A stretch of 64,000 nt of DNA, taken from the NCBI GenBank assembly GCA_017551025.1, contig JAFZNG010000001.1, positions 51,745 to 115,744 on the forward strand, given 5' to 3'. The position numbers and the translations under genes are program-made. The notes under the pieces are model-generated. The model was not told where the DNA came from and made no database searches. It saw nothing but the letters and a program-made list of their open reading frames with translations. Source of the stretch: Paludibacteraceae bacterium. GTDB lineage: Bacteria; Bacteroidota; Bacteroidia; Bacteroidales; Paludibacteraceae. Positions 6,094 through 54,965 of the stretch are shown in pieces. The stretch's first letter is position 1. Every line of letters begins with the position of its first letter.

Positions 6094-7704
6094 ATGAAAA
6101 ACAAGGTTATATTCCTTTTTGCGCTACTCTTTGTGAGTGTGATGGGTTGGGCGCAGGAGCAGGCCGTGGTGAAGGTGCTGTCGATCAACAATAGCCTGAT
6201 TGACTATAACGACCAGTATTTGATGTTCAACAATATCGCTACGACGATGGGCAAGAACGCTACGTGGACCAAGCATACCAATCTGGGTAAGACCCTGGCG
6301 TATCATTATAACGAGGATCCGCTGGTGCCGAATGCACAAACGGTAGTGGCCAACGAGGCTTGGACGCATATTATCCTGCAAGAGCAGTCTTCGCTGCCTC
6401 GCACGAATTTTGCTCAGTTCCGAACCAACGTGCAGACCTGGGTGAATTATATCCGTACGAATTGTCCGAATCCAAATGCGGTGATTATCCTGCCAATCAA
6501 CTGGGCATTTAGCAATGATGCTTCGTATCAGGCAAATAATCGTACGCTGATTGCTAATTTCCGCTTGGTGGCGGAGGAGTTTGGTCTGACGCTTTGCCCG
6601 GTAGCGATTGCGTATGGTAATTATCAGGTAGATCATCCGTCCACGATAGCGGCGGACCTCTATACCGACGATCGTCACCCGACGCAGGCGGCTACGTATT
6701 TGGCAGCCTGTCTGGAGTACGCAGTGATCTTCGGCGAGAACCCGAGTACGATTACGTGGAAACCGGCGGCTTTGTCGGAGACGATGGCTGAGACGATGCG
6801 CAGTTATGCGCAGGAGGCATACGAGGGCGTTGAGCGCACCGAGCCGCTGCCCGTAGAACCGACTCCCGCAGTCTCGATCACGGGTAGTACCTATACGGAA
6901 AATTTCGATACGATTGGTGGCGAAGATGTGACAGAAGCACAGATTGCAGCCAGCCAGGACGGTAAGCGTTCGTTTGATCGCGCAACGCAGTTGCCCGTAG
7001 GTTGGCGCGTAGATAATAATACATCTGCAGTGCGTTCAGTTCGTTCGTTTGCTGCGGCTTCGGAGACGACGATGTATATCGGCGGTCAGAACCTGCCGAG
7101 CAATGCCCGTAACGGTACGTGGAACTTTGGATTGACCGGTAGTACGGACCGTGCGGTAGGTGGTATTACGTCGAGTATCGACGGCGGTGCACGTACGGTA
7201 AGCGTGATGGTGCATCTGCATAACGATGCCGGAGCGGCTATCGATACCCTGACGCTCAGTTATGACATCGAGAAATACCGCAACGGAGCCAATACGGCGG
7301 GTTTTACGCACCAACTATACGTGTCTGCGGATGGCGAGAACTGGACGAGTGCCGGTAGTACTTTCTGTCGTCAATTTGCCAAAGACGCTAATACCAACGG
7401 CGCAGAGGTCGTACCTATCTCAGTGACGGCAGTAAGCGGCCAACTGGCATGTACGTTCCCTGAGAACGGAGACCTGTATCTGGCGTGGAGCGTATCACCG
7501 ATCAGCGGGTCCGACTGCGCCAAATCGATGGCGTTCGGAATAGACAATGTGGTGATTGTGCCGATTATGGGTGAGTCAACGGGAGTGGAAGCACTCACCG
7601 ATAACCGCTCACCGCTCACCGTTACCAAAGTACTGCGTGACGGACAGATGGTTATTGTGCGCGGAGAAGAGGAATTCAACGCGCAAGGAACAAGAATAAA
7701 ATAA
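6094..7704 (+). CDS. Secreted SGNH/DUF4886-like hydrolase with C-terminal tag
   Basis: The ATG at 6094 opens a signal peptide ending VSVMGWAQ; the upstream in-frame ATG at 6079 and TTG at 6025 are less likely. Residues about 25-250 look like an SGNH-fold hydrolase of the DUF4886 type: a candidate nucleophile Ser in KVLSINNSL, the segment WTHIILQEQSS, and a C-terminal Asp-x-x-His pair in DDRHPTQAATYLAA. Families with this fold include carbohydrate esterases. A beta-sandwich-like region (about 285-500, with NFDTIGG and PVGWRVDN) follows, then a linker containing a 7-bp repeat array and the shared tag (KVLRDGQMVIVRG ... GTRIK). Its place beside glycan-binding proteins suggests deacetylation of a polysaccharide; this is inference. 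Confidence 0.75.
   Translation: MKNKVIFLFALLFVSVMGWAQEQAVVKVLSINNSLIDYNDQYLMFNNIATTMGKNATWTKHTNLGKTLAYHYNEDPLVPNAQTVVANEAWTHIILQEQSSLPRTNFAQFRTNVQTWVNYIRTNCPNPNAVIILPINWAFSNDASYQANNRTLIANFRLVAEEFGLTLCPVAIAYGNYQVDHPSTIAADLYTDDRHPTQAATYLAACLEYAVIFGENPSTITWKPAALSETMAETMRSYAQEAYEGVERTEPLPVEPTPAVSITGSTYTENFDTIGGEDVTEAQIAASQDGKRSFDRATQLPVGWRVDNNTSAVRSVRSFAAASETTMYIGGQNLPSNARNGTWNFGLTGSTDRAVGGITSSIDGGARTVSVMVHLHNDAGAAIDTLTLSYDIEKYRNGANTAGFTHQLYVSADGENWTSAGSTFCRQFAKDANTNGAEVVPISVTAVSGQLACTFPENGDLYLAWSVSPISGSDCAKSMAFGIDNVVIVPIMGESTGVEALTDNRSPLTVTKVLRDGQMVIVRGEEEFNAQGTRIK
7594..7626 (+). repeat. Heptamer array CTCACCG inside the SGNH gene
   Basis: Four in-phase 7-bp units: CTCACCG, ATAACCG, CTCACCG, CTCACCG, then TTACC. 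It encodes the linker LTDNRSPLTVTK just before the C-terminal tag. A related array lies in the GH3 gene at 38833. Confidence 0.85.
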
Positions 7705-7714
7705 AATCTAAGAT

Positions 7715-10700: not shown

Positions 10701-11845
10701 CTACTGCTGAACCGGGCGTACTGAGTGTGACGATTCCGAATATGACTGCAGGTGGACATATCTACAAACTATACAATGCTGGTGCAGATAGATGTACAAG
10801 AGCTGATTGTTCAGGTACAACAGATCATCATTTTGCGAATGCGATGGCAAAGAATGTAACATTCTATGCGACGGACGAGGATCATTTCATCTGTACGGAA
10901 GATGCCTTGTATCTGCGCGGCACATTGGTGGGTGAAGACCAAGCACTTGTATGGAATGATGCACATACAGTTGCTACGTGGACTGGTGCATTGGATTTGA
11001 CGGGAACGAAACAATTTAACGTGGTTAAGAAAAATGTGGTAGGTGAAACAACATACACATATACCCAAGATTTCTATGCTGAGGCTCAAACATTCGATGG
11101 CGATTATACCTATGGAACGTTTACGCTGGATTTGACGAAGATGACCGGTACTTGGGGATATGTTGAGTTGGAGTTCCTGGATAATGGCAATAATACTGAC
11201 TTGATAGCAGAGAATGCTGACCGTGTTGCCAACATTATTATAAATCGCCCCATTCTTGCCAACAATGCATGGTATACGCTTTGCGTGCCGTTTGATATGA
11301 GTGCGGATAAGGTGTCGGAGGTGTTTGGTAGTAGTACAATCGCTGAGTTGACCGGTGCGGAGGATCGCGGTTCGCTCATCCACCTCAACTTCAGTTATGT
11401 GAACGCTATGGTGGCCGGCCACGCATACCTCATCATGCCTGGTCAGGACTTCACAGCAGGCAGTACAATCAGCGGCGTGACGATCAAGAATGTCGATCCC
11501 GAGGCGCTGGCGTCCCAAACCGAGTATATGCACTTCCAAGGTACGTTCAACAAGATTATGCTGGAGGGCGAGAACAAACGGTTCATGGGTGCTAACAATT
11601 ACGTATACTCGCCGCGTGATGGTGGTACGCCTGTAGGTGCCTTCCGCTGCTTCTTTACGATTCCGGATAATGCGCCGGCTAACGTGAAGTCGCGTCCGGC
11701 ACGCATCGTATTCGGTGAGCAGACAGCAACCGGCATGGAGAATATATCCGCGCACCCCGCTCCGGCTAAGTTTATGCTCGATGGTGTGCTCTATATCATC
11801 CGTGACGGCCGTACATACAATGCGCAAGGACAATTGGTAAAATGA
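7715..11845 (+). CDS. Large secreted protein: duplicated novel domain, two F5/8 type C (CBM32-like) domains, C-terminal tag
   Basis: The signal peptide ends SVSSMGWA. Residues about 20-390 repeat the layout of the whole 12047-13285 protein: an all-beta domain with ENGDIVVTLT and FRSSGFEG, an Ig/FnIII-like linker with ADSYKAYVYFG, and a second copy of the domain with FRDAGG. Two F5/8 type C domains follow (about 497-640 starting NLALNKDCSAGG; about 740-875 starting NIALDGTASAG), each preceded by an FnIII-like domain with DKDD. A domain starting WYTLCVPFDM (about 1182-1340) matches one in the 2550 gene. It ends with the shared tag (KFMLDGVLYIIRDG ... GQLVK). No enzyme domain was recognised; multivalent glycan binding is the likely role. 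The first half is AT-richer than neighbouring genes. Confidence 0.75.
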   Translation: MKKKLFTLIALLSVSSMGWAELNVCSLRPAHPANGAAGAISLAFNTAENGDIVVTLTPDAEVSAHFRSSGFEGTRNNMKILSGTNFATEENLSEYFSMKNTISGNTCTFYRTGTKNLPSPCKLKIDFSQNALAWVEGAINAYDNNGATVIQYNYGTLCGSTLDAPSISVNSDGEISFDAIEGADSYKAYVYFGSQFIKECPVTSGQKVWNPYLAGEYAIYVRAFNSSTDAYSDFSNGEIWDAVGDPSGDMPKSDICGYYLKEGTNEEALLSFYTDRSTGNFYITLSAGENGDDSKTFFRDAGGLSWNGFTYDGIDMREYFTRIPEDADDINGKVNVLTFVPRTEEGHIPAYNHTIAFASGNYVTWRTYNNGTSRDSWQNNLSFSYVYGTNCNEIDDHVAPVVALTKVSTTTTSATLQIDVTEKDDYNEDRALRSLTIRDAANSFAEQKVTLNGSNQVTLSELNKNTIYNFTVKAVDSGGNVTEETIKVPLTFDPYENLALNKDCSAGGYENNDHKPSKANDGNNTTSFWGTYGCDGKVGFVDWPTANTWEVDLEQAYVLDSVSVYRAELGGGNNRIMTLKGKMNESDEWSTIFDDLSTSLNTSYRNVPAVASARYLQFSFAGTSMIAVNEFEVYGHDYAVPDAVAPVVAVSEISKTYNTVTLQINATDKDDAGNPGTINAINISGDNGFVTQNNVELEENQITLSGLHYNKTYTFAVQVIDLAGNETIENIEVILPFNTNYNIALDGTASAGYWENDSQTADKANDGSTSTKWNTYGVETDKAEYTGTYANNWWMIQLDAAYNLSRVVANYQDVGTRDFIIEGSMDGSNWYVMYKGQTTAAGEFSYDVAAPAQYVRYTYGERYLAVYEFEVYASGFSTLTDDAPVITWAKLGAVDDATAEIEIDAADITTKPITTYVVTGIGEDPIEVTASEGKITLTSLSQSTHYTLSIQAKDGDNNLSEAKQMEFTTAGSVSGLYFFSDYFNWNKTAEAARFSTTAEPGVLSVTIPNMTAGGHIYKLYNAGADRCTRADCSGTTDHHFANAMAKNVTFYATDEDHFICTEDALYLRGTLVGEDQALVWNDAHTVATWTGALDLTGTKQFNVVKKNVVGETTYTYTQDFYAEAQTFDGDYTYGTFTLDLTKMTGTWGYVELEFLDNGNNTDLIAENADRVANIIINRPILANNAWYTLCVPFDMSADKVSEVFGSSTIAELTGAEDRGSLIHLNFSYVNAMVAGHAYLIMPGQDFTAGSTISGVTIKNVDPEALASQTEYMHFQGTFNKIMLEGENKRFMGANNYVYSPRDGGTPVGAFRCFFTIPDNAPANVKSRPARIVFGEQTATGMENISAHPAPAKFMLDGVLYIIRDGRTYNAQGQLVK

Positions 11846-11875
11846 AAGGTGAAAACTGATAGTTGAAAGGAATAA
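11841..11875 (+). repeat. Heptamer array GGTGAAA between genes
   Basis: Units AATGAAA, GGTGAAA, ACTGATA, GTTGAAA, GGAATAA span the end of the 7715 gene and lead into the small peptide ORF at 11878. The stop codon of the upstream gene (TGA, 11843-11845) lies in the first unit. Confidence 0.6.
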
Positions 11876-14609: not shown

Positions 14610-14618
14610 CTTTGTGTC

Positions 14619-14650: not shown

Positions 14651-14710
14651 CAGTGGATTTTGAAAGAAGTCCGCTGTTTTTTTAATGTTTTACTTAAATT
14701 TTTTTTAACT

Positions 14711-15973
14711 ATGATTGAAAATTTATCCATGTATCCGGAGACTGATCTGCACATCTCCAATCACATCGAGCCGAGCTCGTTGCCGGCTATCATCCAACCC
14801 GTCATGGCGCTCGCGCAGTCGGACGCCGAACGCGACATGCTGCTGCTCTCGCTGCTTACCGCAGCGGGCAGCTGTATGCCTCGTCTCTACTGCCGCTACG
14901 GCCTCACGGGCAAAAAGTACTATCCTAACCTCCAGTGCTTCATCGTCGGTTCTGCCGCCTCGGGAAAAGGTATTGCGAACCTCGCACTCGAGTTCGTGAG
15001 CAAGGTGCACGCCGCCCTGCCGCTCGTCATCCCCGGCGACTCGTCCTATCCCGGCTTCTATCGCCAACTGGCGCGTCAGGACGGCCGCGGCTACATCCAC
15101 GAGTCGGAGGGCTCGGTCATCACCGACGTATGGCGCTCCTCGGTCACTAACTACAACACCGCCCTGCGTAAGGCAGCCGAACACGAACCCATCACCCGCA
15201 ACCGCGCGAACGATAATTCATGTATCGCGTGCCCGCAACTGAGCGTACTGCTGACCGGTACGTTCTCCCAGTATCGTGCCCTCGTGCCGAGTATCGAGAA
15301 CGGCTATTTCTCACGACTGCTGACGCTTATCGTCCAGGATCAGCAGGCGTTCAACCACCGCTATGTAGAACCCGCCGATGGCTCCGCCGGCGTTATGCAG
15401 CAGGCTGCCGCCCGTCTCTACGATATCTGCCAAGCGCTCTACCGTTCGCATCCTACGGAGTTTACGCTCACGCCTGAGCAACGCACCCGCCTCGGCCACC
15501 ACCTCGAGACCGCCTATCCGGCACTCCTCTCGCTGCTCGGCACCAATTTCCACTCCGTCGTCCTCCGCATGGCCGTACATATCGAACGCATCGCGATGAT
15601 CCTCACGGCTCTTCGGCTGACCGAAGAGCAATTAAAAATTAAAAATTACGAATTAAAAATGGCATGTAGCGACACGGATTATCAGATTGCCGAATTGATT
15701 GGCAACAAACTCATCCTCCATATGGCGATGGCCTATCGGATGATCAAGGGTGCCGAACAAGTCGCCGTCCCGAAAGTCCAAGCCCTGGACCAAAAGCAGA
15801 TTTTATTGAATCTATTGCCTGCGGAATTTGAAACGAAACAATTGGTAGATGAAGCTAAACTACAAGGAATCTGTCGTAGAACGGTTTTTGTCTGGAGCGA
15901 GGAGTGGCAACGGAACGGGTTAGTTCAGAAGATTCGTCACGGTGCTTATAAGAAACTCCATGTTTCCGCATAG
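14711..15973 (+). CDS. DUF3987-family P-loop protein
   Basis: The ATG at 14711 (MIENLSMYPETDLHISNHI) is preferred over the in-frame start at 14612, which would lie upstream of the promoter. The protein has 420 residues with a Walker A-like motif GSAASGKG at about 80-87, then segments typical of DUF3987 (IPGDSSYPGFYRQLARQDGRGYIHESEG; LSVLLTGTFSQYRALVPSIENGYFSRL). DUF3987 proteins resemble primase/helicase-type ATPases of mobile elements, but the family function is not established. The C-terminus (LVDEAKLQGICRRTVFVWSEEW) looks like a winged-helix DNA-binding segment. A heptamer array encodes LKIKNYELK near residue 310, apparently an in-frame insertion. Confidence 0.8.
   Translation: MIENLSMYPETDLHISNHIEPSSLPAIIQPVMALAQSDAERDMLLLSLLTAAGSCMPRLYCRYGLTGKKYYPNLQCFIVGSAASGKGIANLALEFVSKVHAALPLVIPGDSSYPGFYRQLARQDGRGYIHESEGSVITDVWRSSVTNYNTALRKAAEHEPITRNRANDNSCIACPQLSVLLTGTFSQYRALVPSIENGYFSRLLTLIVQDQQAFNHRYVEPADGSAGVMQQAAARLYDICQALYRSHPTEFTLTPEQRTRLGHHLETAYPALLSLLGTNFHSVVLRMAVHIERIAMILTALRLTEEQLKIKNYELKMACSDTDYQIAELIGNKLILHMAMAYRMIKGAEQVAVPKVQALDQKQILLNLLPAEFETKQLVDEAKLQGICRRTVFVWSEEWQRNGLVQKIRHGAYKKLHVSA
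15608..15657 (+). repeat. Perfect hairpin abutting AATTAAA heptamer array in the DUF3987 gene
   Basis: GCTCTTCGG (15608-15616) and CCGAAGAGC (15621-15629) form a 9-bp stem with a CTGA loop. Units AATTAAA, AATTAAA, AATTACG, AATTAAA (15630-15657) follow at once. The array is translated as LKIKNYELK. Confidence 0.8.
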
Positions 15974-16080: not shown

Positions 16081-16144
16081 ATGCACTATTTGCACTTTTT
16101 GCACTTTGGAGAATGAAAGTGCATAAAGTGCAGAAAGTGCAAAT
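16081..16144 (+). repeat. Inverted pair of nonamer arrays (TTGCACTTT / AAAGTGCAA)
   Basis: Three 9-bp units (ATGCACTAT, TTGCACTTT, TTGCACTTT), an 8-base spacer (GGAGAATG) and three units on the opposite strand (AAAGTGCAT, AAAGTGCAG, AAAGTGCAA), so the whole can fold as a long hairpin. It ends 24 bases before the ATG at 16169. Confidence 0.8.
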
Positions 16145-20017: not shown

Positions 20018-21661
20018 ATGAAAAAGAATATAGTAAATAAGCTTTTATCTTTGAGCGTATGCGGTCTTTTATCTTTGAGCGTAGCGGTCTGCTTCACCGG
20101 TTGCAAGGATTATTTGACAGAGATTGAGCCGGGCACGACGCTGCTCGAGGACTTCTATACCTCGACCGATGCAGCTGTGCAGAACGTGACCGGATGCTAT
20201 ACGCCGCTCATGTGGGAGTACAACCATACCTATCTGAGTGAGTGGTTTATCGGCGATATTGCCAGCGACGACGCAATCAAGGGTGGTGGCTCTACTACCG
20301 ATATGTCGGATGCCTATGATATCGAGAACTGGCGTACCACCGACCAGAACACCCTCTTGCTCGACTTCTACCGTGCCCAGTACCAGGGTATCGGTCGCTG
20401 CAACCTCGCGCTCGAGTATATCGGTAAGACCGAAGTAGGCATAGACGAGAAGTTTACGGAGCAGATGAAGAACCGTCTGCTGGGTGAGGTACATTTCCTG
20501 CGTGCGTACTATTATTTCCGCCTGGTGCGTGTATTCGCAGGCGTACCTATGCCGCTGGAGGTTCTCAGTTCGTCGGATAAGTGGGGCATGCCGCGTGCAT
20601 CGGTAGATGCCGTCTATACCCAGATCCTGGCCGACCTGGCGATCGCTAATCAGTACCTGCCGCTCAAGAGCCAGTACGATGCTGCTGACCTCGGTCGCGC
20701 TACCAAGGGTGCGGCACAGGCTATGCTGATGAAAGTCAACCTCTATATGGCTTCGCCGTTCTGGCAGAAGAAGGGCGTCAGCAAGTCGGCTGCTACCTGC
20801 TACAGCGATGCTAAGGCTTGGGGTGACTCGATCATCACCAGCGGTGAGTATTCGCTCTGCACCAACTACGAGGACAACTTCACCGTAGCCGGTGAGAACG
20901 GTCCGGAGTCGGTATTCGAGATCCAGTACGCCGAAGTAGCCTGGGGCGACTACGGCGAGGGCTTCGGTTATACCGCCGGCAGTTTCAGCCAGATCCTGAT
21001 GCGTAGCCGTAACTCGGAGATCGGTGGCGGTTGGGGATTCGACCACCCGACCCAGAACCTCTACGATGAGTTTGAGGCAGGTGACCCGCGTCGCGATGTA
21101 GCGATCCTGATCCCGAGTACGTCGATCGTATCGAGCTATCAACCACAATCCGACGAGACCTATCTGGGCAATAACATGCTCAACAACAAGTACGGTATGT
21201 ACCGCGATCCGGCCGCTATCGGTGGCGGTTACGGCAAGTGGAGCCTGCATGCTTCGCGTGGTCCGCTCAACAATAAGCAGATCCGCTACGCCGACGTGCT
21301 GCTCATGTACGCAGAGGCTTGTCTTGGTACGGGTGACGCCGGAACGGCTAAGTCGTATATCGACCAAGTGCGCAACCGCGTAGGACTCGGTCCGTGTGCT
21401 GCGGCTGACGATGCTACGCTGCGCCACGAGCGCCGTTGCGAGCTCGCGATGGAAGGTCACCGCTGGTTTGACCTCGTGCGCTGGGAAGGCGTAGCCGGTA
21501 CCGGTCTGAAGGCACACATGGATGCCTATAAACTGACCGAGACCGCCGAGGCACAATCGCATATCCAGGAGTTCGTAGCCGGTAAGCATGAGCTCTTCCC
21601 GATTCCGCAAGAAGAGCGTCAGCTCAACCCGACGGAGATGGAACAAAATCCGGGATACTAA
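20018..21661 (+). CDS. SusD-like glycan-binding lipoprotein
   Basis: The ATG at 20018 (MKKNIVNKLLSLS) gives a lipoprotein signal with Cys29 in FTGCKDY; the in-frame ATG at 19991 would add nine residues. The protein has 547 residues with the RagB/SusD fold: YLTEIEPGT start, helical middle (EVHFLRAYYYFRLVRVFAGVPMP) and C-terminal ERRCELAMEGHRWFDLVRW and NPGY end. It forms the lid of the SusC channel and captures glycan at the surface. The signal peptide is encoded by two tandem copies of a 24-bp repeat, giving LLSLSV twice. Confidence 0.95.
   Translation: MKKNIVNKLLSLSVCGLLSLSVAVCFTGCKDYLTEIEPGTTLLEDFYTSTDAAVQNVTGCYTPLMWEYNHTYLSEWFIGDIASDDAIKGGGSTTDMSDAYDIENWRTTDQNTLLLDFYRAQYQGIGRCNLALEYIGKTEVGIDEKFTEQMKNRLLGEVHFLRAYYYFRLVRVFAGVPMPLEVLSSSDKWGMPRASVDAVYTQILADLAIANQYLPLKSQYDAADLGRATKGAAQAMLMKVNLYMASPFWQKKGVSKSAATCYSDAKAWGDSIITSGEYSLCTNYEDNFTVAGENGPESVFEIQYAEVAWGDYGEGFGYTAGSFSQILMRSRNSEIGGGWGFDHPTQNLYDEFEAGDPRRDVAILIPSTSIVSSYQPQSDETYLGNNMLNNKYGMYRDPAAIGGGYGKWSLHASRGPLNNKQIRYADVLLMYAEACLGTGDAGTAKSYIDQVRNRVGLGPCAAADDATLRHERRCELAMEGHRWFDLVRWEGVAGTGLKAHMDAYKLTETAEAQSHIQEFVAGKHELFPIPQEERQLNPTEMEQNPGY
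20042..20088 (+). repeat. Tandem 24-bp repeat forming the SusD signal peptide core
   Basis: Each copy is CTTTTAT, CTTTGAG, CGTATGC or CGTAGCG, plus GG(T) or GT. Translated as LLSLSVCG and LLSLSVAV. The same word order occurs at 22803, 26480 and 34077, and inverted at 27461. Confidence 0.85.
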
Positions 21662-21666: not shown

Positions 21667-21711
21667 CTAGATACTCTAGACGCTCTAGACACTCTAGAAA
21701 TACTAGATATA
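21667..21711 (+). repeat. Nonamer array CTAGAnnnT
   Basis: Five 9-bp units between susD and the binding protein: CTAGATACT, CTAGACGCT, CTAGACACT, CTAGAAATA, CTAGATATA. Confidence 0.85.
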
Positions 21712-21742
21712 TTAACAACCTTTTTTTAAAATTAATTTTATT

Positions 21743-22692: not shown

Positions 22693-22727
22693 GCGAAAGG
22701 CTAAAGGTTATAGGCTAAAGTATATAA
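22693..22727 (+). repeat. Heptamer array GCTAAAG
   Basis: Units GCGAAAG, GCTAAAG, GTTATAG, GCTAAAG, TATATAA directly after the stop at 22690. The reverse complement (CTTTAGC, CTTTCGC) is the word used at 34886 and 50171. Confidence 0.8.
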
Positions 22728-22784: not shown

Positions 22785-24068
22785 ATGAAAAAAATCGTTT
22801 ATCTTTTATCTTTGAGCATAGCGGTCTTTTGTCTTGCAGCTTGCGAGACGCCGGAGACACCCCAGAACGTGACACTCAGTCTCTCGCCGGTAACGCTGAC
22901 CTTGAAAGTAGGTGATATCTCTACGATTGAGGCTACGGGTACGGCCACGAATATCGAGTGGACTTCGTCGGACGAGTCGGTGGCCACCGTCTTCCACGGC
23001 GTTGTCACCGCCAAAGCCATCGGTTATGCGGAAGTGACTGCCAAGTCGGGCAACGCGTCCGCAACGTGTGTGGTATACGTGACCGGCACCGACGGATCGA
23101 CGCTGCGTATCACGCCGCCGCAGGTGACCCTGCGTCCGGGCGATACTTACCAGTTCGGCTATGGCAATACCTACAACCTGGACCTCACCTGGTCGGTAAG
23201 CGATGAGAGTGTGGCTACGATTACCCAGACGGGTCTTCTGACCGCCAAGGCTGCCGGTAATACCGTTGTGACGCTCGCAACCAACGTAGGCGCGGTGACC
23301 GCCAACGTAGCCGTAGAGCACAGTTGGGGCGAATATACGATGGTTTGGTCCGACGAGTTCAACGGTACGTCGCTCGATGAGTCGGTATGGAACTACAATA
23401 TCGGCGGCAACGGTTGGGGCAACAACGAGAAGCAGTATTATACCTCGCGCGCGGAGAATATCCGTGTACAGAACGGATGTCTCGAGATCGAAGCCCGCAA
23501 GGAGCAGTACGAGAACAACGAGTACACCTCCGCCCGTATCCACTCGAAGGGAAAGAAAGAATTCAAATACGGTCGTATCGAGGCACGTATTAAGTTCCCA
23601 GGCGGCAAGGGTACCTGGCCGGCATTCTGGACACTGGGCAACAGCGGCAACTGGCCCAACTGCGGCGAGATCGATATCATCGAGCATATCGGTAGTCAAC
23701 CGACTCGTGCATCGTTTGCCCTGCATACGGCAGCCAAGAACGGCACCAAGGGTAACAACTGGTCGAAGACGACCTTCTTCGACTACTCGCTGGCCGACGA
23801 CTTCCATGTATATGCCGTAGAGTGGGCACAGGAGGAGAAAGACGGCAAGGACGTTATCCGCTTCATGGTGGACGGCGTGCAGTATGCCGAGTCGTGGGAA
23901 GCTACGATCGACGATCTGGACAGCTGGCCCTTCAGCCGTCCGCACTATATCATCTTCAATTGCGCCATCGGTGGTAATATGGGTGGCCAGATCGATGATG
24001 CGATATTTAATCAACAACGAATTATGTACGTAGACTGGGTACGCGTATGGCAACGACAAGAACAATAA
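22785..24068 (+). CDS. GH16 endo-beta-1,3-glucanase lipoprotein with two Ig-like domains
   Basis: The lipoprotein signal ends CLAAC (Cys20). Two bacterial Ig-like domains (about 28-105 and 107-180) precede a GH16 catalytic domain (about 183-427) starting YTMVWSDEFNGTSLDE. The GH16 signature is intact: GEIDIIEHIG with Glu295 as nucleophile, Asp297 and Glu300 as acid/base. The domain ends YVDWVRVWQ. Laminarinase is the most likely activity among GH16 functions given SNGIW-like context (TWPAFWTLG). It is probably anchored in the outer membrane. It has no C-terminal tag. The last 22 bases overlap the next gene. Confidence 0.92.
   Translation: MKKIVYLLSLSIAVFCLAACETPETPQNVTLSLSPVTLTLKVGDISTIEATGTATNIEWTSSDESVATVFHGVVTAKAIGYAEVTAKSGNASATCVVYVTGTDGSTLRITPPQVTLRPGDTYQFGYGNTYNLDLTWSVSDESVATITQTGLLTAKAAGNTVVTLATNVGAVTANVAVEHSWGEYTMVWSDEFNGTSLDESVWNYNIGGNGWGNNEKQYYTSRAENIRVQNGCLEIEARKEQYENNEYTSARIHSKGKKEFKYGRIEARIKFPGGKGTWPAFWTLGNSGNWPNCGEIDIIEHIGSQPTRASFALHTAAKNGTKGNNWSKTTFFDYSLADDFHVYAVEWAQEEKDGKDVIRFMVDGVQYAESWEATIDDLDSWPFSRPHYIIFNCAIGGNMGGQIDDAIFNQQRIMYVDWVRVWQRQEQ
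22803..22832 (+). repeat. Heptamer words forming the GH16 signal peptide core
   Basis: CTTTTAT, CTTTGAG, CATAGCG, GT, CTTTTGT. Encodes LLSLSIAVFCL; same word order as in SusD. Confidence 0.8.
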
Positions 24069-26424: not shown

Positions 26425-26426
26425 AT

Positions 26427-26467
26427 CCGATTACTCTGATTATTCCGATTATTCCGATTATTCCGAT
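26427..26467 (+). repeat. Nonamer array CCGATTATT before a GH16 gene
   Basis: Units CCGATTACT, CTGATTATT, CCGATTATT, CCGATTATT, CCGAT fill the whole 43-base gap and abut the ATG at 26468. Confidence 0.85.
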
Positions 26468-27460: not shown

Positions 27461-27552
27461 AGACCGCTTCGCTAAAAGAAAAAAGACCGCTTCGCTAAAA
27501 GAAAAAAGACCGCTTCGCTAAAAGAAAAAAGACCGCTGCGCTCAAAGAAAAA
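27461..27552 (-). repeat. Four tandem 23-bp repeats, inverse of the signal-peptide repeat
   Basis: Four near-identical 23-bp copies at 27461, 27484, 27507 and 27530. On the minus strand each reads CTTTTTT (or similar), CTTTTAG, CGAAGCG, GT: the same 7+7+7+2 order as the signal-peptide repeats of SusD, GH16 and GH81. No ORF uses it. Confidence 0.9.
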
Positions 27553-27554
27553 AG

Positions 27555-27596
27555 CCTAATTACTAAAGCATAATTATTAAAACCTAATTACTTATG
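27555..27596 (+). repeat. Heptamer array CCTAATT before the four-helix-bundle gene
   Basis: Units CCTAATT, ACTAAAG, CATAATT, ATTAAAA, CCTAATT, ACTTATG, the last containing the ATG at 27594. Confidence 0.75.
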
Positions 27597-27994: not shown

Positions 27995-28022
27995 CTTTTA
28001 TCTTTCGACTTTTATCTTTCGA
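27995..28022 (+). repeat. Heptamer array CTTTTAT/CTTTCGA before the GPH symporter
   Basis: Alternating units CTTTTAT, CTTTCGA, CTTTTAT, CTTTCGA, then CTAG, six bases before the ATG at 28028. The inverse words occur inside the phosphorylase gene at 29645. Confidence 0.85.
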
Positions 28023-28027
28023 CTAGA

Positions 28028-29383: not shown

Positions 29384-29405
29384 AAATTACGAATTAAAAA
29401 TGAAA
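29371..29405 (+). repeat. AATTAAA heptamer array spanning a stop and a start codon
   Basis: Units AATTAAA, AATTAAA, AATTACG, AATTAAA, AATGAAA. The second unit supplies the TAA of the symporter (29381-29383) and the last supplies the ATG of the phosphorylase (29400). Confidence 0.85.
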
Positions 29406-37740: not shown

Positions 37741-39919
37741 GAGTGCGGAAGATCAGTTTATCGATAACCTGCTCGCGCAGATGACGCTCGAGGAGAAGAT
37801 CGGTCAGATGAACCAGCTCGACCCTTCGTATGAATCGGAAGCCAAAGAGGCACTGATCCGCGAGGGTAAGGTAGGATCGATATTCAATATCGTGGGTGCT
37901 AAGGAGGTGAATCGCCTCCAGCGCATGGCGGTAGAGGAGACCCGTCTGGGTATCCCGTTGGTGGTAGCGCGTGACGTCATTCACGGCTTTCGTACGATCT
38001 ATCCTATCCCCCTCGGACAGGGTGCAACATGGAATCCGGAGATGGTAGAGAAAGCTGCTGTTTATACAAGCGAAGAGGCATACTCGGCCGGTATACGATG
38101 GGCATTCTCGCCTATGGTAGATGTAGCGCACGACCCGCGTTGGGGTCGCGTAGCAGAAGGCTATGGTGAAGACCCCGTATTGACCTCCACGATGGGTGCC
38201 GCTACCGTCCGTGGTTACCAACAGCCAATAGCTAATAGCCAATGGCCAATGATGGCTGCCTGCGTGAAGCACTTTGCCGGTTATTCGGTTTCGGAAGGTG
38301 GACGTGATTATAATACGACTTGGATTCCCGAGACCCAGTTGCGCGATATCTACCTGCCGCCGTTCAAGGCTGCACTGGATGCCGGAGCGATGTCGCTCAT
38401 GTGTTCGTTCAATGCCCTGAACGGACTGCCCTCGTCGGCTAACCCGCACCTGAATATAGATATCTTACGCAATGAGTGGCAATCGGATGCGCTGTTGCTT
38501 AGCGATTGGGGTAGCGGTAGCGATCTGGTGCCGCACGGACTGTGTGCGGACAAGAAGGACGCGGCGCTGCGGTGTATCAATGCCCGCATGGAGATGGATA
38601 TGCAGGGAAATATCTATACCGATTACCTCGCCGAACTGGTGGCGGAGGGCAAGGTGAAGGAGAGCCGGATTGATGAGTGCGTACGCTCTATTTTGCGACT
38701 CAAATACCGTCTCGGTCTATTCGATAATCCCTACGTGCCGGAGGATGAACCGATCGCCTATACAGATAGTGCCCTCAACTTAGCCACCCAACTGGTAGAG
38801 CAATCCGCTATCCTGCTCAAGAACGACGGTGTGCTACCGCTCACCGCTAACCAATCACCGCTCACCATTCTTATCACCGGTCCGCTAGCCGACCAGAAGA
38901 AGGAGCAACTCGGTACGTGGATCTTCGACGGCGAACCCGAGCACTCCGTAACGCCGCTCGAAGCGTTTGAAGAATTAAAAATTAAAAATGAAAAATTAAA
39001 AATTATTTTTGAGCCGGGATTGATCTATAGTCGCGACAAGAATGCGGCGGGCATCCGAAAAGCCGTAGAGGCAGCTAGTCAGGCCGACGTGATTATCTTC
39101 TTTGCCGGCGAGGAAGCCATTCTATCGGGCGAGGCACGTTGCCGTGCGGATATTACCTTGCCGGGCGCACAAAGCGAGATGATGGAGGCGCTGGCCGAGA
39201 CAGGTAAACCCGTCGTGCTGATTGTGATGGCGGGTCGTCCGCTGACGATCGGTCGCGAGGTAGAGCAGGCGGCTGCCGTGCTCTATTCCTTCCACGGTGG
39301 CACGATGGCAGGTCCCGGACTGGCGAATGTACTGACCGGTCGGGCAGTACCCTCCGGCAAGACACCGATCACCTTCCCCAAGATGGTGGGCCAGATACCG
39401 CTCTACTATAATCGCCATAATACCGGTCGTCCTACGTACGACGAGCCGGTGCTCATCGATGATATACCGGTCGGTGCACCGCAGTTCAGCGTGGGCTATT
39501 CGTCCTGCTGGCTGGAGACGGCTACCGAACCGCTCTTCCCCTTCGGCTACGGACTGAGTTATACGACGTTTGCGTATGGGGAACCACAATTAGACGGAAT
39601 GACGGTTTCGTGTACCGTCAAGAACACCGGCACATATGATGCCTACGAAGTAGCGCAACTCTATACCCATCAGCACGCCGGCGCACTGGTGCGTCCGCTG
39701 AAGGAACTCAAGGATTTCCAGAAGATCTTCATCCCGGCGGGTGAGTCGCGCGAGGTGAGCTTCACGCTAACCCGCGAACAGCTCGGCTACTGGCACCAAG
39801 CATACGAGGGCCAGACCAGCCGCGTATGGTTCGCTACCGACGATGCCGACTTCGATATCTGGATTGCGCCCGACTCGCGCTGCCAGACCAAACCTGTTTC
39901 AATACAACTAAAAAACTAA
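37670..39919 (+). CDS. GH3 beta-glucosidase lipoprotein
   Basis: The ATG at 37670 lies inside the GH81 gene and opens a lipoprotein signal (MARYLFRATVLSILLMAVCSC, Cys21). The GH3 N-terminal barrel contains the nucleophile Asp279 in LLLSDWGSGSD, the middle domain has IIFFAGEEAILSGEARCRADITLPGAQ, and an FnIII-like C-terminal domain follows (YEVAQLYTHQHAGALVRPLKELKDFQK). At 749 residues it is complete. It probably removes terminal glucose from beta-gluco-oligosaccharides in the periplasm. Three heptamer arrays lie inside the gene. The 71-base overlap with GH81 encodes both a secretion signal and a C-terminal tag. Confidence 0.92.
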   Translation: MARYLFRATVLSILLMAVCSCNHKSAEDQFIDNLLAQMTLEEKIGQMNQLDPSYESEAKEALIREGKVGSIFNIVGAKEVNRLQRMAVEETRLGIPLVVARDVIHGFRTIYPIPLGQGATWNPEMVEKAAVYTSEEAYSAGIRWAFSPMVDVAHDPRWGRVAEGYGEDPVLTSTMGAATVRGYQQPIANSQWPMMAACVKHFAGYSVSEGGRDYNTTWIPETQLRDIYLPPFKAALDAGAMSLMCSFNALNGLPSSANPHLNIDILRNEWQSDALLLSDWGSGSDLVPHGLCADKKDAALRCINARMEMDMQGNIYTDYLAELVAEGKVKESRIDECVRSILRLKYRLGLFDNPYVPEDEPIAYTDSALNLATQLVEQSAILLKNDGVLPLTANQSPLTILITGPLADQKKEQLGTWIFDGEPEHSVTPLEAFEELKIKNEKLKIIFEPGLIYSRDKNAAGIRKAVEAASQADVIIFFAGEEAILSGEARCRADITLPGAQSEMMEALAETGKPVVLIVMAGRPLTIGREVEQAAAVLYSFHGGTMAGPGLANVLTGRAVPSGKTPITFPKMVGQIPLYYNRHNTGRPTYDEPVLIDDIPVGAPQFSVGYSSCWLETATEPLFPFGYGLSYTTFAYGEPQLDGMTVSCTVKNTGTYDAYEVAQLYTHQHAGALVRPLKELKDFQKIFIPAGESREVSFTLTREQLGYWHQAYEGQTSRVWFATDDADFDIWIAPDSRCQTKPVSIQLKN
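38223..38250 (+). repeat. Heptamer array AGCCAAT inside GH3
   Basis: Units AGCCAAT, AGCTAAT, AGCCAAT, GGCCAAT. Encodes PIANSQWPM before the conserved KHFAGY segment. Confidence 0.85.
38833..38867 (+). repeat. Heptamer array CTCACCG inside GH3
   Basis: Units GCTACCG, CTCACCG, CTAACCA, ATCACCG, CTCACCA. Encodes LPLTANQSPLTIL; same word family as the SGNH linker at 7594. Confidence 0.8.
38973..39007 (+). repeat. AATTAAA heptamer array inside GH3
   Basis: Units AATTAAA, AATTAAA, AATGAAA, AATTAAA, AATTATT. Encodes ELKIKNEKLKII; the third unit, in the stop phase, is AATGAAA. Confidence 0.85.
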
Positions 39920-41897: not shown

Positions 41898-42332
41898 ATG
41901 GCTAAACTGACAGACATAACGGATTCCGAACAAAGCGAGTTGGCACTGGAATTCGCCGAATCTATTCATGCCGGATTTCCTTCGCCTGCGGCGGACCATA
42001 CCGGTGAACGTATCAACCTTACCCGCGAACTGACACCGCATCCTGAGACAACCTTCTATGCCCACGTAGAGGGCGACTCGATGCGCGATGCCGGCATCCT
42101 GGATGGCGACATCGTCGTGGTAGATCGTAGTCTCGATCCCAAGAACGGGGATTATATCATCGCGTATATCGACAATGAATATACGCTCAAAGAGTTCCGC
42201 ATGGACGAGAGCGGCCAATGCGCCTGGCTCATCCCTCATAATCCCGACTTCCAACCCATCCGCGTTTCTGCCGAGTCGAATTTCCAAGTCTGGGGCGTCG
42301 TCACCTACGCCATCCACAAAACCCGCCCCTAA
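41898..42332 (+). CDS. umuD: UmuD-like SOS mutagenesis protein (S24 peptidase)
   Basis: The 144-residue protein has a self-cleavage site Ala25-Gly26 (SIHAGFPSPA), nucleophile Ser61 in VEGDSMRDAGI and general base Lys98 in YTLKEF. RecA-stimulated cleavage would yield the active UmuD' partner of the Y-family polymerase encoded next. There is no N-terminal DNA-binding domain, which separates it from LexA. It follows the HAD gene by five bases; no SOS box or separate promoter was recognised in that gap, so it may be co-transcribed with the glucan operon. Confidence 0.9.
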   Translation: MAKLTDITDSEQSELALEFAESIHAGFPSPAADHTGERINLTRELTPHPETTFYAHVEGDSMRDAGILDGDIVVVDRSLDPKNGDYIIAYIDNEYTLKEFRMDESGQCAWLIPHNPDFQPIRVSAESNFQVWGVVTYAIHKTRP

Positions 42333-42362
42333 CTCTACACTCTACACCCTACACCCTACACC
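42333..42362 (+). repeat. Heptamer array CTCTACA/CCCTACA between umuD and umuC
   Basis: Units CTCTACA, CTCTACA, CCCTACA, CCCTACA, CC fill the entire 30-base gap between the umuD stop and the umuC ATG. Confidence 0.9.
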
Positions 42363-45537: not shown

Positions 45538-47528
45538 TGAAACGATTATCTTCACCGGTACGTAAGCGTTGGGTGGCTGTCTTGGCCGCCATGCTCTTCG
45601 TCGGAGTAGTGGGAGTAGATGCGGAAGAGGGAGCGCCATCGGATTCTGCGCAGACCAACCGGAGACGGAATCTGCAGGAGGTGCTGGTGGTTTCTCAAAA
45701 AGCGGAAGTTTATTCCCAGGCCTACCGCCTCGTTACGTCGCTCTCGCACGAAGAGATTAGCGCCTGGCCTATTCAGTCGATAGCGGATATTATGCAGTAT
45801 CTGCCGGGTGTGGATCTGCGTACGCGTGGCGCCGGAGGTACGCAAACTGACCTCTCTATGCGTGGCGGCACATTCGACCAGGTGCTTGTGCTGCTCAACG
45901 GTGTCTCGCTCAATGATGCGCAGACCGGCCACTACACGCTTAACCTGCCTCTGTCTGTCGATCTGATCGAGCGCATAGAAGTGCTCCAAGGTGCCTCTGC
46001 CAACCTCCTTGGTGCATTCTCCGGAGCCATCAATATCATCACCAAATCACCAATCACCAATCACCAATCGGAAGTCTCCCTGGGCCTCTCCGCCGGTATG
46101 AACGGACTTGCCAATCCCTCGCTGGCTGCCACCATTCAGGCCGGAGAAGCGCAATTCCATGTTTCTGCCGACTATAGTCGCGCCGATGGCTACTACGCTC
46201 CCGCTCCTTCGTTGAAAGAGACGGTTGCTATGCGTAATTCGGATTTCCAGCAGGCGAATATCTACTTCCAAACACGTTGGCGAGACTTGGATGTGCAAGC
46301 CGGTGCACAATGGAAAGATGCCGGCTTGGGCATGGGATACGGATTTGGTTCGCAAGACCAGTTTGATGCTACGCGTACGGCCTTCGCTTCGGCGCGTTAT
46401 CAGCATCGTTTGGGGGCTTGGCGCTTGGATGCCCAAGCGGCTTATCGTGTCAACTACGACCGCTATGAGTGGCATCGTGGCACGCCGAGTAATCAGCACT
46501 GGAACCATACAGCCTCAGCCGTCCTCGCGGCACACTATGCATCGCGTCTGGGTACCACTTCGTTCGGTCTTGGAGCACGCGATGAGATTATTCGCTCTAC
46601 CAATCTCGGTGATCATAACCGACTGCATGTCCATTACTTTGCCGAACAGACCTTCTATTATGCGGGGCTGTCAGCCTCGCTGGGTATCAACGGCACCTAC
46701 AATACGCAGTTCGGTTACCATATGGGAGGAAGCGCCAATATCGGCTATGAATTCGTGCGCAACCACCATATCTATCTCAATGCCAACCGTTCACTCCGAA
46801 TGCCCACCTTCACCGACCTCTACTACGATGCCGGCAACCAATTGGGTAATAGCAACCTGCAGCCCGAACAGGCCTGGCTGCTCTCGCTTGGCTACAAAGG
46901 ACAATGGCAACTGGGGTCTAACAGTCCGAAGGACGGTCTAACAGCGAAGCGGTCTAACAGCGAAAGCGGTCTTACAGGCGAAGCCGGTCTTATCTCCGTC
47001 GCCTTCGACGGATATTACCGCTGGGGTAAGAACGTCATCGATTGGGTTTATGTGCCTGCCGATACCAAGCGTCCGTATCACGCCGCCAACCAGCAACAGG
47101 TAAATGCCGCAGGTCTGGAACTGTCCGTGGCCTATCGCCTTAATGATTGGCTGCGTTGTGTCTCGGTGGATTATGCCTATACCCATTTGGATCTCGATCT
47201 CAAGGAGAGCGGCTCGCGCTACCTGGACTATCTCAGCCATAAGCTCGTTCTCCATCTCGAACATGGTATATACGTAGGTAAGCATAGTACCCTCGGTGCT
47301 TCGTGGACGATGCGTTTTCAGAAGCGCGAGGGACAATATAACGATGCTGATGGCGCGGTACAAGACTACGCGCCCGTCTGGTTGCTGGATGGTTCGCTCT
47401 TCTGGCAAAACGCCCACTTGCGCGTGAGTGCAGACTGCACGAATATGACCAACCGCCACTATTACGATTACGGAGGCGTCCTCATGCCCGGCGCATGGGC
47501 TAAGTTAACCGTTAAAGCACTATTATAA
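45534..47528 (+). CDS. TonB-dependent outer-membrane receptor (BtuB/CirA-like)
   Basis: Start at 45534 within the ATGA overlap with the GH105 stop; an ATG at 45516 is also in frame. After a signal peptide (ends GVVGVDAEE) the plug begins LQEVLVVSQKAEVYSQA and has ADIMQYLPGVDLRTRG and RGGTFDQVLVLLNGVSLNDAQTGH. There is no carboxypeptidase-like N-terminal domain and no SusD partner, so it is not SusC-type; cobalamin, siderophore or another small ligand is possible. Two short-repeat arrays lie in frame (46038 and 46915), the second coding for an extracellular-loop-like insertion. Confidence 0.88.
   Translation: MMKRLSSPVRKRWVAVLAAMLFVGVVGVDAEEGAPSDSAQTNRRRNLQEVLVVSQKAEVYSQAYRLVTSLSHEEISAWPIQSIADIMQYLPGVDLRTRGAGGTQTDLSMRGGTFDQVLVLLNGVSLNDAQTGHYTLNLPLSVDLIERIEVLQGASANLLGAFSGAINIITKSPITNHQSEVSLGLSAGMNGLANPSLAATIQAGEAQFHVSADYSRADGYYAPAPSLKETVAMRNSDFQQANIYFQTRWRDLDVQAGAQWKDAGLGMGYGFGSQDQFDATRTAFASARYQHRLGAWRLDAQAAYRVNYDRYEWHRGTPSNQHWNHTASAVLAAHYASRLGTTSFGLGARDEIIRSTNLGDHNRLHVHYFAEQTFYYAGLSASLGINGTYNTQFGYHMGGSANIGYEFVRNHHIYLNANRSLRMPTFTDLYYDAGNQLGNSNLQPEQAWLLSLGYKGQWQLGSNSPKDGLTAKRSNSESGLTGEAGLISVAFDGYYRWGKNVIDWVYVPADTKRPYHAANQQQVNAAGLELSVAYRLNDWLRCVSVDYAYTHLDLDLKESGSRYLDYLSHKLVLHLEHGIYVGKHSTLGASWTMRFQKREGQYNDADGAVQDYAPVWLLDGSLFWQNAHLRVSADCTNMTNRHYYDYGGVLMPGAWAKLTVKALL
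46038..46070 (+). repeat. Heptamer array AATCACC inside the TonB receptor gene
   Basis: ATCACCA, then AATCACC three times and AATCGG. Encodes ITKSPITNHQSE at the end of the plug domain. Confidence 0.85.
46915..46990 (+). repeat. 16-20 bp tandem repeat GGTCTAACAG(CGAAGC) inside the TonB receptor gene
   Basis: Four copies beginning GGTCTAACAG or GGTCTTACAG, spaced 16 to 20 bases, with the CGAAGCG-GT word also seen in the 27461 array. Encodes NSPKDGLTAKRSNSESGLTG, a hydrophilic loop. Confidence 0.8.
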
Positions 47529-50007: not shown

Positions 50008-50858
50008 ATACTATCTATATTGTCCTGCCGATTCTGACGCTTCTGATGTTCGACTTGGGTTTGGCGCTCAAGCCGGCAGACTTTCGCCTGATTGCAGAGC
50101 GCCCGAAACCCGTCCTCATTGGTCTGTTCGGACAGATTATCCTGTTGCCGCTCATCGCGTGGGCTATCACCCTTTCGCCTCTAGCCTCTAGCCTTTCGCC
50201 TTTATTCATCATCGGAATAATGCTCATCGCCTGCAGTCCGGGTGGTAGTTCCAGCAATGTGTTCTCCATGCTGGCGAAAGGGGATGTGGCGCTATCCGTT
50301 ACGCTGACGGCATGCAGCAGTATCATCACGCTCTTTACCTTGCCGCTTATCATGGCGTGGGTGACGCAGAGTGTCGGCGAAGCGGTGGATATCCATCTGC
50401 CTATAGGCAAACTGCTCGTCCAGAACATCGTGCTGATGGTCGTGCCGATATCTATTGGTTTTGTGGTCAATCTCTTCAAGCCTCAAGCGGCAGAGAAGAT
50501 ACATAACATCCTTAAACGTATCGCCATGCCGGCGTTGGTGCTGTTGGTAACTGTTTTCTTCTTTCAGCACAAACAAACGATCGTGACGGAGTTTGGTAGC
50601 CTCGGACTTACTATGTCCGTACTTATCCTCGCTACCACTTCTTGCGGGGCCTTGATGGCATGGCTGTTCCGCTTGACCACCAAAGAGCGCCGCACCCTGG
50701 TCATCGAAATCGGCATGCAGAATGCCGCACAGGCCATCACGATTGCCTGCAGTCCGTTGATCTTCAACAATGAGATCATCGCCATCCCGGCCATCATCTA
50801 TGCACTGATGATGAACCTAATCCTACTCGCATACGTAGGAATAACTAAAATTAAATAA
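50004..50858 (+). CDS. Bile acid:sodium symporter (BASS) family transporter
   Basis: The 284-residue membrane protein with about 9 helices has family segments LMFDLGLALKPADFRLIAERPKPVLIGLFGQ, IIGIMLIACSPGGSSSNVFSMLAKGDVALSVTLTACSS, and IEIGMQNAAQAITIACSPLIF. BASS members carry organic anions such as bile acids, pantoate or keto acids; the substrate here is unknown. A heptamer array in frame encodes LSPLASSLSPL between helices 2 and 3. It overlaps the HD gene by ATGA. Confidence 0.9.
   Translation: MNTIYIVLPILTLLMFDLGLALKPADFRLIAERPKPVLIGLFGQIILLPLIAWAITLSPLASSLSPLFIIGIMLIACSPGGSSSNVFSMLAKGDVALSVTLTACSSIITLFTLPLIMAWVTQSVGEAVDIHLPIGKLLVQNIVLMVVPISIGFVVNLFKPQAAEKIHNILKRIAMPALVLLVTVFFFQHKQTIVTEFGSLGLTMSVLILATTSCGALMAWLFRLTTKERRTLVIEIGMQNAAQAITIACSPLIFNNEIIAIPAIIYALMMNLILLAYVGITKIK
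50171..50205 (+). repeat. Heptamer array CCTTTCG/CCTCTAG inside the BASS gene
   Basis: Units CCTTTCG, CCTCTAG, CCTCTAG, CCTTTCG, CCTTTAT. Encodes LSPLASSLSPLF between two helices; same word family as 34886, opposite strand to 22693. Confidence 0.88.
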
Positions 50859-53890: not shown

Positions 53891-53894
53891 TACA

Positions 53895-54965
53895 ATGCGG
53901 ATGAAAACGGCGATAATCATTTTGAGCATACTGGCGCTACTGGTCGTAGTGGTGGTGGCTGTGCTGCAGCATCCGGCTTTCGGTCGGCGCGTGTCGGCGG
54001 AGCGCAAAGCGCGTATAGAAGCATCGCCTAATTACCGAGATGGGATGTTCCAAAACCAACAGCCGACGCCGCAGTTCACGGGCGACCATAATACGCTCAA
54101 AGCGATGTGGACAATGCTGATGCGGCGGGACAGTAACCGTGTACCCATCGAACCAATACCGGCTGTCAAGACCGACCTAAAAAGCATGCCGAAAGACCGA
54201 GACTGGTTGGTGTGGTTCGGTCATTCGTCGTACTTGTTCTGTCTCAACGGCAAACGCTATCTGGTGGACCCTCTGCTGAAGATGGAGTTTCCCGCATCGC
54301 TGATGTTGAAACCCTTTAAGGGTACAGACATCTATACACCGGATGACATGCCCGAAATTGACGTGCTCATCATCACGCACGAACACTGGGATCATCTGGA
54401 CTACGCCACCTTGCGCGACCTGCGCCCCAAAGTGAAGCAAGTGGTTTGTCCGCTTGGAGTAGGCGAATATCTGGAGTATTGGAAATACGACCCCTCCATC
54501 ATCCATGAGATGGATTGGATGGAGGAATTAAAAATTAAAAATTACGAATTAAGAATTACCTGCCTGCCATCTCGCCATTTCTCCAATCGTTTGCTACGTG
54601 GTCGCAATCAAACACTATGGGCGGCGTTTATGGTTGAAGCAGTCGACCGCAAGGTATATATAGGTGGTGACGGAGGCTATGACGACCGGTTCCGACAGGC
54701 GCGTGAACAGTTCGGTAAGATTGACTTGGCTATCATGGAGAACGGCCAGTATAATCCCAACTGGGCGTATATCCACATGCTGCCGCAGGACTTGGAACAA
54801 GCCATCTTGGACATGCAACCCGAGCAGGTGTTTACCGTGCATCACGACAAGTTCTCGCTCTCCACGCACGCATGGTCTGAACCCGACAGCGTGGCTCGCT
54901 CCATCGCCGAACGGAATGCCATCCACCTATTAGACCAACCCATCGGAACAGTAATATATTTTTGA
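53895..54965 (+). CDS. Membrane-anchored metallo-beta-lactamase-fold hydrolase (NAPE-PLD/UlaG-like)
   Basis: An N-terminal hydrophobic helix (TAIIILSILALLVVVVVAVL) anchors a 356-residue protein. The metal-binding motif is THEHWDHLDY; GHSSYLFCLNGKRYLVDPLL, PSRHFSNR, VYIGGDGGYDDRF and FTVHHDKFSLS complete the fold, resembling NAPE-PLD-like hydrolases. A heptamer array encodes ELKIKNYELRIT before the PSRHFSN segment. The ATG at 53901 is an alternative start. The substrate is unknown. Confidence 0.87.
   Translation: MRMKTAIIILSILALLVVVVVAVLQHPAFGRRVSAERKARIEASPNYRDGMFQNQQPTPQFTGDHNTLKAMWTMLMRRDSNRVPIEPIPAVKTDLKSMPKDRDWLVWFGHSSYLFCLNGKRYLVDPLLKMEFPASLMLKPFKGTDIYTPDDMPEIDVLIITHEHWDHLDYATLRDLRPKVKQVVCPLGVGEYLEYWKYDPSIIHEMDWMEELKIKNYELRITCLPSRHFSNRLLRGRNQTLWAAFMVEAVDRKVYIGGDGGYDDRFRQAREQFGKIDLAIMENGQYNPNWAYIHMLPQDLEQAILDMQPEQVFTVHHDKFSLSTHAWSEPDSVARSIAERNAIHLLDQPIGTVIYF
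54526..54560 (+). repeat. AATTAAA heptamer array inside the MBL hydrolase gene
   Basis: Units AATTAAA, AATTAAA, AATTACG, AATTAAG, AATTACC. Encodes ELKIKNYELRIT; the third unit, in the stop phase, is AATTACG. Confidence 0.88.

Follow-up and report, generated by a model that had tools for sequence, protein, structure and literature searches.

Short heptamer-periodic arrays with genome-specific vocabularies in a Paludibacteraceae genome and its relatives

In this study, we mainly focus on short arrays of seven-nucleotide units that lie inside and between genes in a 64,000-nt stretch (contig JAFZNG010000001.1, positions 51,745-115,744; hereafter the window) of the 1.94-Mb draft genome of a rumen Paludibacteraceae bacterium (G000), along with their counterparts in related genomes. 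One protein encoded in the window has its nearest orthologues (93% identity) in ruminant records labelled Paludibacteraceae or Bacteroidales. The same patches are common to unrelated places, and the vocabularies of array words are genome-specific. The explanation that we favour, to which we assign a probability of roughly 0.55, is that the arrays are short heptamer-periodic patches under genome-wide concerted evolution, copied between sites and overwriting older arrays.

Period 7 dominates both the window and the genome from which it was taken. Scanned at periods 3-30 with a score of at least 16 and compared with five shuffles, the window contained nine segments of period 7, two each of periods 9 and 14, and one each of periods 18, 23, and 24, with none at other periods and a shuffle mean of 0. 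A 400-kb sample of the same genome, drawn as 20 stretches and scanned at periods 2-40 with a score of at least 14, yielded 81 arrays of period 7, against 0, 0, 0, 1, and 1 at periods 2-6 and 9, 8, 4, 9, 3, and 0 at periods 8-13; the multiples of seven were also represented (45 arrays at period 14 and 18 at period 21), and one first-order Markov shuffle of the sample gave no array at any of these periods. Period 7 thus exceeds periods 6, 8, and 10 in this sample, the comparison on which the earlier note on this DNA had staked its proposal. A typical array measures about 30-35 bp and some reach 50-60 bp, the units being often imperfect in this sample. The near-constant unit number described earlier holds in the sense of a narrow distribution rather than a constant: among 36 arrays of the word AATTAAA in 464 kb of G000, 24 are 32-35 bp long within a range of 25-44 bp, and all 36 begin within three adjacent phases.

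Complex composite arrays are dispersed as units. The composite core TTTTGGCTATTGGCTATTAGCTAA (at most two mismatches) had 20 matches in the related genome G015, with 0 for the reversed control, and none in G000, G006, G003, or G021. An alignment of 18 distinct copies extends over about 54-58 bp, with sharp ends and unrelated flanks; all 17 copies with a gene call have the same orientation relative to the stop-side gene, and some copies differ by one unit. The two ends of this family, ACTTTAGC and GCTAATGT, make up an imperfect inverted repeat; an RNA hairpin of -15 to -16 kcal/mol is predicted for the six copies that were folded. For nine of these sites, 12 orthologous spacers were compared: two are empty, eight hold other 7- or 8-mer arrays, and two have other sequence. 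A second composite, AATCATAAATTTGCAATCATAAATC, had 44 matches at 31 places in G006, nine in G022, and 0-4 in 29 other genomes (control, 0). Pairs of arrays with a common non-periodic 25-mer numbered 60 in G000, against a mean of 30 and a maximum of 37 in unit-order shuffles, and 46 in G015, against a mean of 17.5 and a maximum of 24.

The vocabulary of each genome is distinct. In the first samples, AAAAATT was the favoured word of G000 (32 of 81 arrays) and AATCACC that of G003 (6 of 16). Across 349 arrays from G000, G006, and G015, the share of pairs with identical words was 5.8% within genomes and 2.0% between them, and the within/between ratio at a word distance of at most 1 was reached by none of 200 label shuffles. 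Where the word at an orthologous place had changed, 34 of 42 comparisons showed it to be more frequent in the genome that carries it; both directions of a reciprocal pair were counted, in this test and in the word-turnover test below, so that the counts in either are not independent. The pattern AATTAAAAATTAAAAATT had 152 overlapping matches in G000, 35 in G015, and 34 in G021, compared with 0-7 in 38 other genomes searched, 21 of them of the same genus. Patterns made of AATTAAA are a poor test against a reversed control (152 versus 62 reversed in G000), since reversal yields a pattern that is part of the same array, and an initial search of this kind was therefore not taken as evidence of enrichment.

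The comparison between species, in which 375 arrays provided 142 array-orthologue comparisons (from 111 arrays), indicates that places are re-used while words are exchanged. No array was present at the orthologous place in 77 comparisons; the word was within one letter in eight, two letters off in 19, and different by at least three letters in 28, and the remaining 10 had period 8 or 11, so that the heptamer word had changed in 47 of 142 (19 + 28). The arrays are accordingly not conserved in homologues, as they would be if they were simply conserved protein sequence, the other outcome that the earlier note had named as fatal. Period-7 arrays nevertheless stood at 22 of 63 orthologous in-gene places versus 34 of 2408 random in-gene controls, and at 33 of 79 junctions versus 25 of 137 array-free junctions; the control is generous because its inspected stretch, at least 80 bp, exceeded that used for the arrays themselves. 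A symporter gene (50004-50858), which carries a CTTTCGC/CTCTAGC array at 50171..50203 in the window, is illustrative: period-7 arrays, in 10 word classes, occupy the corresponding segment at 17 of the 39 genus-like orthologue loci and at none of the 41 others. At one Prevotella-type locus, 13 of 14 records retain an array with unchanged position and phase, while its word shifts stepwise (AATTGGG, AATTAGG, AGTTAGG, AATTAAG, AACTAAA, AAGTAAA). Protein length was also compared with array-free orthologues whose flanks were at least 50% identical. In these 73 comparisons the array-bearing protein was longer in 42, equal in eight, and shorter in 23, and only three were longer by exactly 7 residues. 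This spread fits local sequence replacement better than pure 7-nt duplication.

Several other observations were made at these places. Period-8 arrays, such as ATCACGAG/ATCACGTG, stand in G006 spacers in place of heptamer arrays at several orthologous places. Palindromic CTCCC..GGGAG mini-repeats occur in frame in gene segments that hold heptamer arrays in other species (loci L112 and L058; orthologues in G015 and G006). An identical 37-bp array is present in G003 and G006 (L163:12620 and L212:10678) though the flanks are about 81% identical, and one Prevotella-type record (L134) has the word class AGTTAGG/AACTCCT at three adjacent sites near 3493, 3567, and 4950.

With respect to genes, the arrays are concentrated at stop codons. 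Placement was scored in 464 kb of G000 and 420 kb of G006, with gene starts taken from a simple hexamer gene finder, so that distances to starts are approximate. Of 91 arrays in G000, 49 lie at stop codons (3.7% of random places), 30 inside genes (83% of random places), three at starts, and nine elsewhere; 61 of 91 are thus outside genes, compared with 17% of random places. The 62 arrays of G006 are similarly divided, with 30 at stops, 25 inside genes, one at a start, and six elsewhere. The first base of an array often lies no more than a few bases from the stop codon, and its last a few bases ahead of the next start. Arrays inside genes keep the frame, encoding peptides such as ELKIKNYELKI, SPITNHQSPIT, and KVKGERLMVKG. 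In a GH3-type gene of the window (37670-39919), the alignment is poorly conserved and variable in length at all three arrays, and from this variation and low conservation we infer that they lie in surface loops.

Taken as copying, these patterns could arise as follows. Short stretches of existing arrays would be copied elsewhere, the probable route being either ectopic gene conversion or, during replication, template switching guided by microhomology; a copied patch would overwrite an older array and occasionally land at a new place. Periodic sequence would be both a good donor and a good acceptor, every unit giving another annealing register, and a stop codon could offer an annealing site to words that contain TAA, TGA, or TAG. 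Selection would purge patches in essential sequence and spare spacers and tolerant protein segments; because such landings would be removed, the survivors would be found just past stops and, in frame, in tolerant segments. Slippage surely contributes gains and losses of units and may start some arrays. The earlier note had proposed an active process that creates the arrays, by template copying, as a mobile mini-element or as an array of binding sites; the evidence now favours multi-unit copying between unrelated sites and supports neither a binding-site array nor a classical transposase-driven element.

Several points weigh against concerted evolution by copying. The net length gains are spread widely, which fits overwriting and equally multi-step drift. 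The only pair of near-identical records (L081 and L082, 99.1%), with one array, displayed neither a unit gain nor a recent copying event. Many words have few arrays per genome (35, 54, and 48 distinct classes in the samples of G000, G006, and G015, respectively) and could have arisen locally. Certain variants, AATTACG among them, are found repeatedly in G000, G015, G021, and G006, so that the vocabulary may be partly constrained or inherited rather than copied. Finally, the unit-order test gave no excess in G006 (10 versus 8.6) or G003 (1 versus 0.95).

The strongest competitor, which we consider possible though distinctly less probable, is local replication slippage with a 7-nt preference, whereby a direct repeat spaced 7 nt is amplified in place and the array is born from its own flank. 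Heptamers are described, in a survey cited in PMC4679880 and PMC4692102, as the most abundant class of long simple repeats in most bacterial genomes surveyed, and a polymerase-footprint proposal for the 7-nt step, from earlier work, is quoted in PMC4679880. Arrays start and finish with the same few letters, words other than those of the G015 family ending with direct copies of their own letters; two sites of the GH3-type gene are exactly 21 bp (3x7) longer than in orthologue L052, a further site having a different word there, and some copies of the G015 family differ by a single unit. However, slippage would not by itself give net gains that fail to peak at 7 residues, complex composites that recur at unrelated places in one species only, or an abundance of AATTAAAAATTAAAAATT so skewed between species despite a G+C content of 46-52% in all genus genomes sampled for array density. 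As a sole cause, slippage is weakened by the in-gene net lengths and the species-specific composites.

Two further explanations invoke dedicated machinery, and both are doubtful. It is improbable, though conceivable, that an undescribed system writes periodic patches of about 30-60 bp from species-specific templates into junctions and gene interiors, re-papering spacers and some protein segments. Slightly less probable still is a non-autonomous mini-element whose movement depends on a cellular transposase or reverse transcriptase. The sharp ends, unrelated flanks, uniform orientation, imperfect terminal inverted repeats, and hairpin of the G015 family are what such an element would display, but words, lengths, and ends vary far beyond a transposon family, and the fixed terminal inverted repeats of miniature inverted-repeat transposable elements or insertion sequence derivatives were not found, imperfect ones occurring in the G015 family only. 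Most arrays are barely more structured than shuffles, the mean difference in fold energy being -0.5 kcal/mol in G000, -0.8 in G006, and -2.1 in G015, and RNA structure is therefore a weak general explanation outside the G015 family. Two enzyme families, RVT_1 and Y1_Tnp, were searched. RVT_1 (PF00078) had no match in G000, which is 95% complete (relatives were not searched), and was detected in three of 14 control genomes, so that a reverse transcriptase of this family was rejected as the writer. Y1_Tnp, the one transposase family tested, had a single match in G000 and none in G006 or G015, the genomes with the clearest array families; Y1/RAYT transposases hence do not follow array load, which lends no support to a classical mobile element served by a transposase of its own.

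More unlikely again is that the arrays are selected for a function between genes, as binding sites or as elements that space translation, a role proposed for the TAACTGA repeats of Beggiatoaceae. Arrays do hug stops and often end shortly ahead of the next start, and most TAACTGA repeats lie close upstream of start codons, according to PMC4679880. Nevertheless, a single genome uses many different words, which vary between sites and between species and occur in both orientations (15 and 10 for AATTAAA in co-directional spacers); 30 of 91 arrays are inside genes, and an array is present at only 54 of the 270 co-directional junctions sampled in G000. An assembly or binning artefact is very improbable, although the relatives are metagenome-assembled genomes: a single read can span an array, reading frames are preserved, and arrays turn up again in many records that were assembled independently.

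Within the window, the observation of the earlier note is confirmed: all 27 listed places were inspected, and 22 of these overlap a row of Tandem Repeats Finder with a score of at least 40. The five without such a row are two degenerate heptamer stretches, namely a weak TTGAAAG-like one at the stop of open reading frame (ORF) 7715-11845 (11841..11875) and an AATNACC-type one inside ORF 34036-37740 (36633..36665), and three elements at 22803..22826, 26480..26503, and 34077..34104. These three had been described as 7+7+7+2 arrays and proved to be single forward-strand copies of a dispersed 23-24-mer, at the starts of ORFs 22785-24068, 26468-27457, and 34036-37740, respectively; two others are indeed tandem, with two forward copies at the start of ORF 19991-21661 (20042..20090) and four inverse copies of the 23-mer, on the reverse strand, immediately past the stop at 27457 (27461..27554). 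The 23-24-mer, with the core GCGWAGCGGTCTTTTNTCTTT, thus occurs at four ORF starts, where the regions appear to encode signal peptides, and in a spacer as an inverted tandem series; it has 14 matches in G000 and is matched in 10 of 31 genus genomes.

The recurrence of word families in both orientations is supported, and AATTAAA occurs five times in the window as had been stated (15630, 26316, 29371, 38973, and 54526). Three of these arrays have AATTACG as the third unit: 15630..15660, in frame (QLKIKNYELK) in ORF 14612-15973; 29371..29407, at the junction of ORFs 28028-29383 and 29361-32468, where it provides the upstream stop; and 54526..54558, in frame (ELKIKNYELRIT) in ORF 53895-54965. In a fourth, at 38970..39005 in the GH3-type gene (7 residues more than L052), the third unit is AATGAAA. 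In these four in-frame arrays, the variant unit stands exactly where the plain word would produce a stop codon. The fifth, an AATTAAA/AATGAAG array (26310..26350), lies towards the 3' end of ORF 25390-26424.

Other heptamer arrays inside genes include CTCACCG near the 3' end of ORF 6025-7704 (7594..7621); AGTCGAA/AGACAAA in frame (RVESRKTKDKR) at 29642..29676, whose orthologues have GGTGAAA words in G006 and G015 and no array in G011; CTTTCGC in frame (FAFNLSPFAF) at 34886..34918, with CAGTTTT words in the G015 orthologue; and AATCACC in frame (KSPITNHQS) in ORF 45516-47528 (46038..46069). The same ORF contains a 16-17-mer array of GGTCTAACAGCGAAGC (46915..46990), which resembles the GGTCTAACAG repeats of a G014 spacer (L197). 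The GH3-type gene further carries AGCCAAT (38218..38251; 7 residues more than L052) and CTCACCG/CTAACCA (38836..38867), the orthologues of the latter having other words in L052 and L058, an 8-mer in L061, and a shorter segment without an array in L054-L056.

Between genes, a GGCTAAA-type array (22693..22726) follows immediately past the stop at 22690, and CTCTACA/CCCTACA (42327..42362) fills the spacer from the stop at 42332 to the start at 42363. The 14-mer (2x7) array of CCTAATTACTAAAG (27551..27592) ends just ahead of the start at 27594, and CTTTTAT/CTTTCGA (27995..28024) stands just ahead of the start at 28028. Arrays of 9-mers are found immediately past the stop at 21661 (CTAGACACT; 21667..21714), across the stop at 26424 and up to the start that follows at 26468 (TCCGATTAT; 26420..26467), and at 16082..16141, where TGCACTTTT and its inverse GAAAGTGCA form two arrays between ORFs that, being mutually inverse, could make a hairpin upstream of ORF 16169-16549.

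Array density varies widely among the relatives. At a score of at least 14, the arrays per 100 kb numbered 20 in G000 and G003, 15 in G015, 10 in G004, 7.5 in G022, and 5 each in G016, G007, and G014; G006 also had 20, from 20 kb only, and G011 and G008 had none in 20 kb each. Larger samples brought the counts to 99 arrays for G006 (820 kb) and 125 for G015 (480 kb). No array was found in four genomes that belong to other families within the order, at 80 kb each (320 kb). The arrays are not limited to one genus, as 46 were found in 374 kb of rumen Bacteroidaceae/Prevotellaceae-type loci (41 loci). Single words were detected in 4 of 395 Bacteroidota genomes, and AGTTGAG arrays in 18 of 295 Bacteroidales genomes (12 of 183 genera).

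Heptamer repeats are already known in bacteria, and it is the behaviour of the arrays in this genome that looks new. Our search of open-licence papers found no description of such arrays for Bacteroidales and no paper on the exchange of species-specific heptamer words at conserved places. PMC4692102 reports heptamer repeats in Nostoc and Xanthomonas, their places being only partly kept between two Xanthomonas, and PMC4679880 reports TAACTGA repeats in Beggiatoaceae, cyanobacteria, and five Bacteroidetes. Like the heptanucleotide long simple repeats, or short tandemly repeated repetitive sequences, of Nostoc/Calothrix and Xanthomonas (GGGAATC), the arrays consist of head-to-tail 7-nt units and display a period-7 excess (81 versus 0-9), dispersal, and intergenic, non-coding enrichment. 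Unlike those repeats, they comprise dozens of words per genome, a third of the arrays are located within genes and keep the frame, and the word at a given place is swapped between species for one of the local vocabulary. With the TAACTGA repeats of PMC4679880 they have in common heptamer arrays close to the ends of genes, of two to six copies there, and a patchy distribution that includes Bacteroidetes; in that source, however, there is one word and related heptamers are rarely repeated, whereas here the words are many and species-specific, and none of G000, G006, or G015 has one conserved word.

Other systems offer partial parallels. Phase-variation (contingency) repeats are marked by perfect units that often change in copy number; the units here are frequently imperfect, and one near-identical pair of records, with a single array, was available for such a comparison. 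In-frame tolerance is shared with the Rickettsia palindromic elements, small palindromic repeat families tolerated inside genes, although most arrays here are not hairpins. REP/BIME sequences, which are associated with RAYT transposases, are likewise short, dispersed, and intergenic, but the arrays require no hairpin and have no tie to Y1 transposases. Short-patch double illegitimate recombination, in which microhomology would guide the ectopic copying of short patches and local length would change, is a candidate likeness, no event having been caught among these arrays.

The reason why bacterial repeats prefer 7 nt becomes a testable question here, because one junction can be compared across many species. 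If short periodic DNA does spread by copying, bacterial concerted evolution would operate on patches of 30-60 bp and reach into coding sequence, and this would account for low-complexity peptides such as ELKIKNYELKI and SPITNHQSPIT within otherwise conserved proteins.

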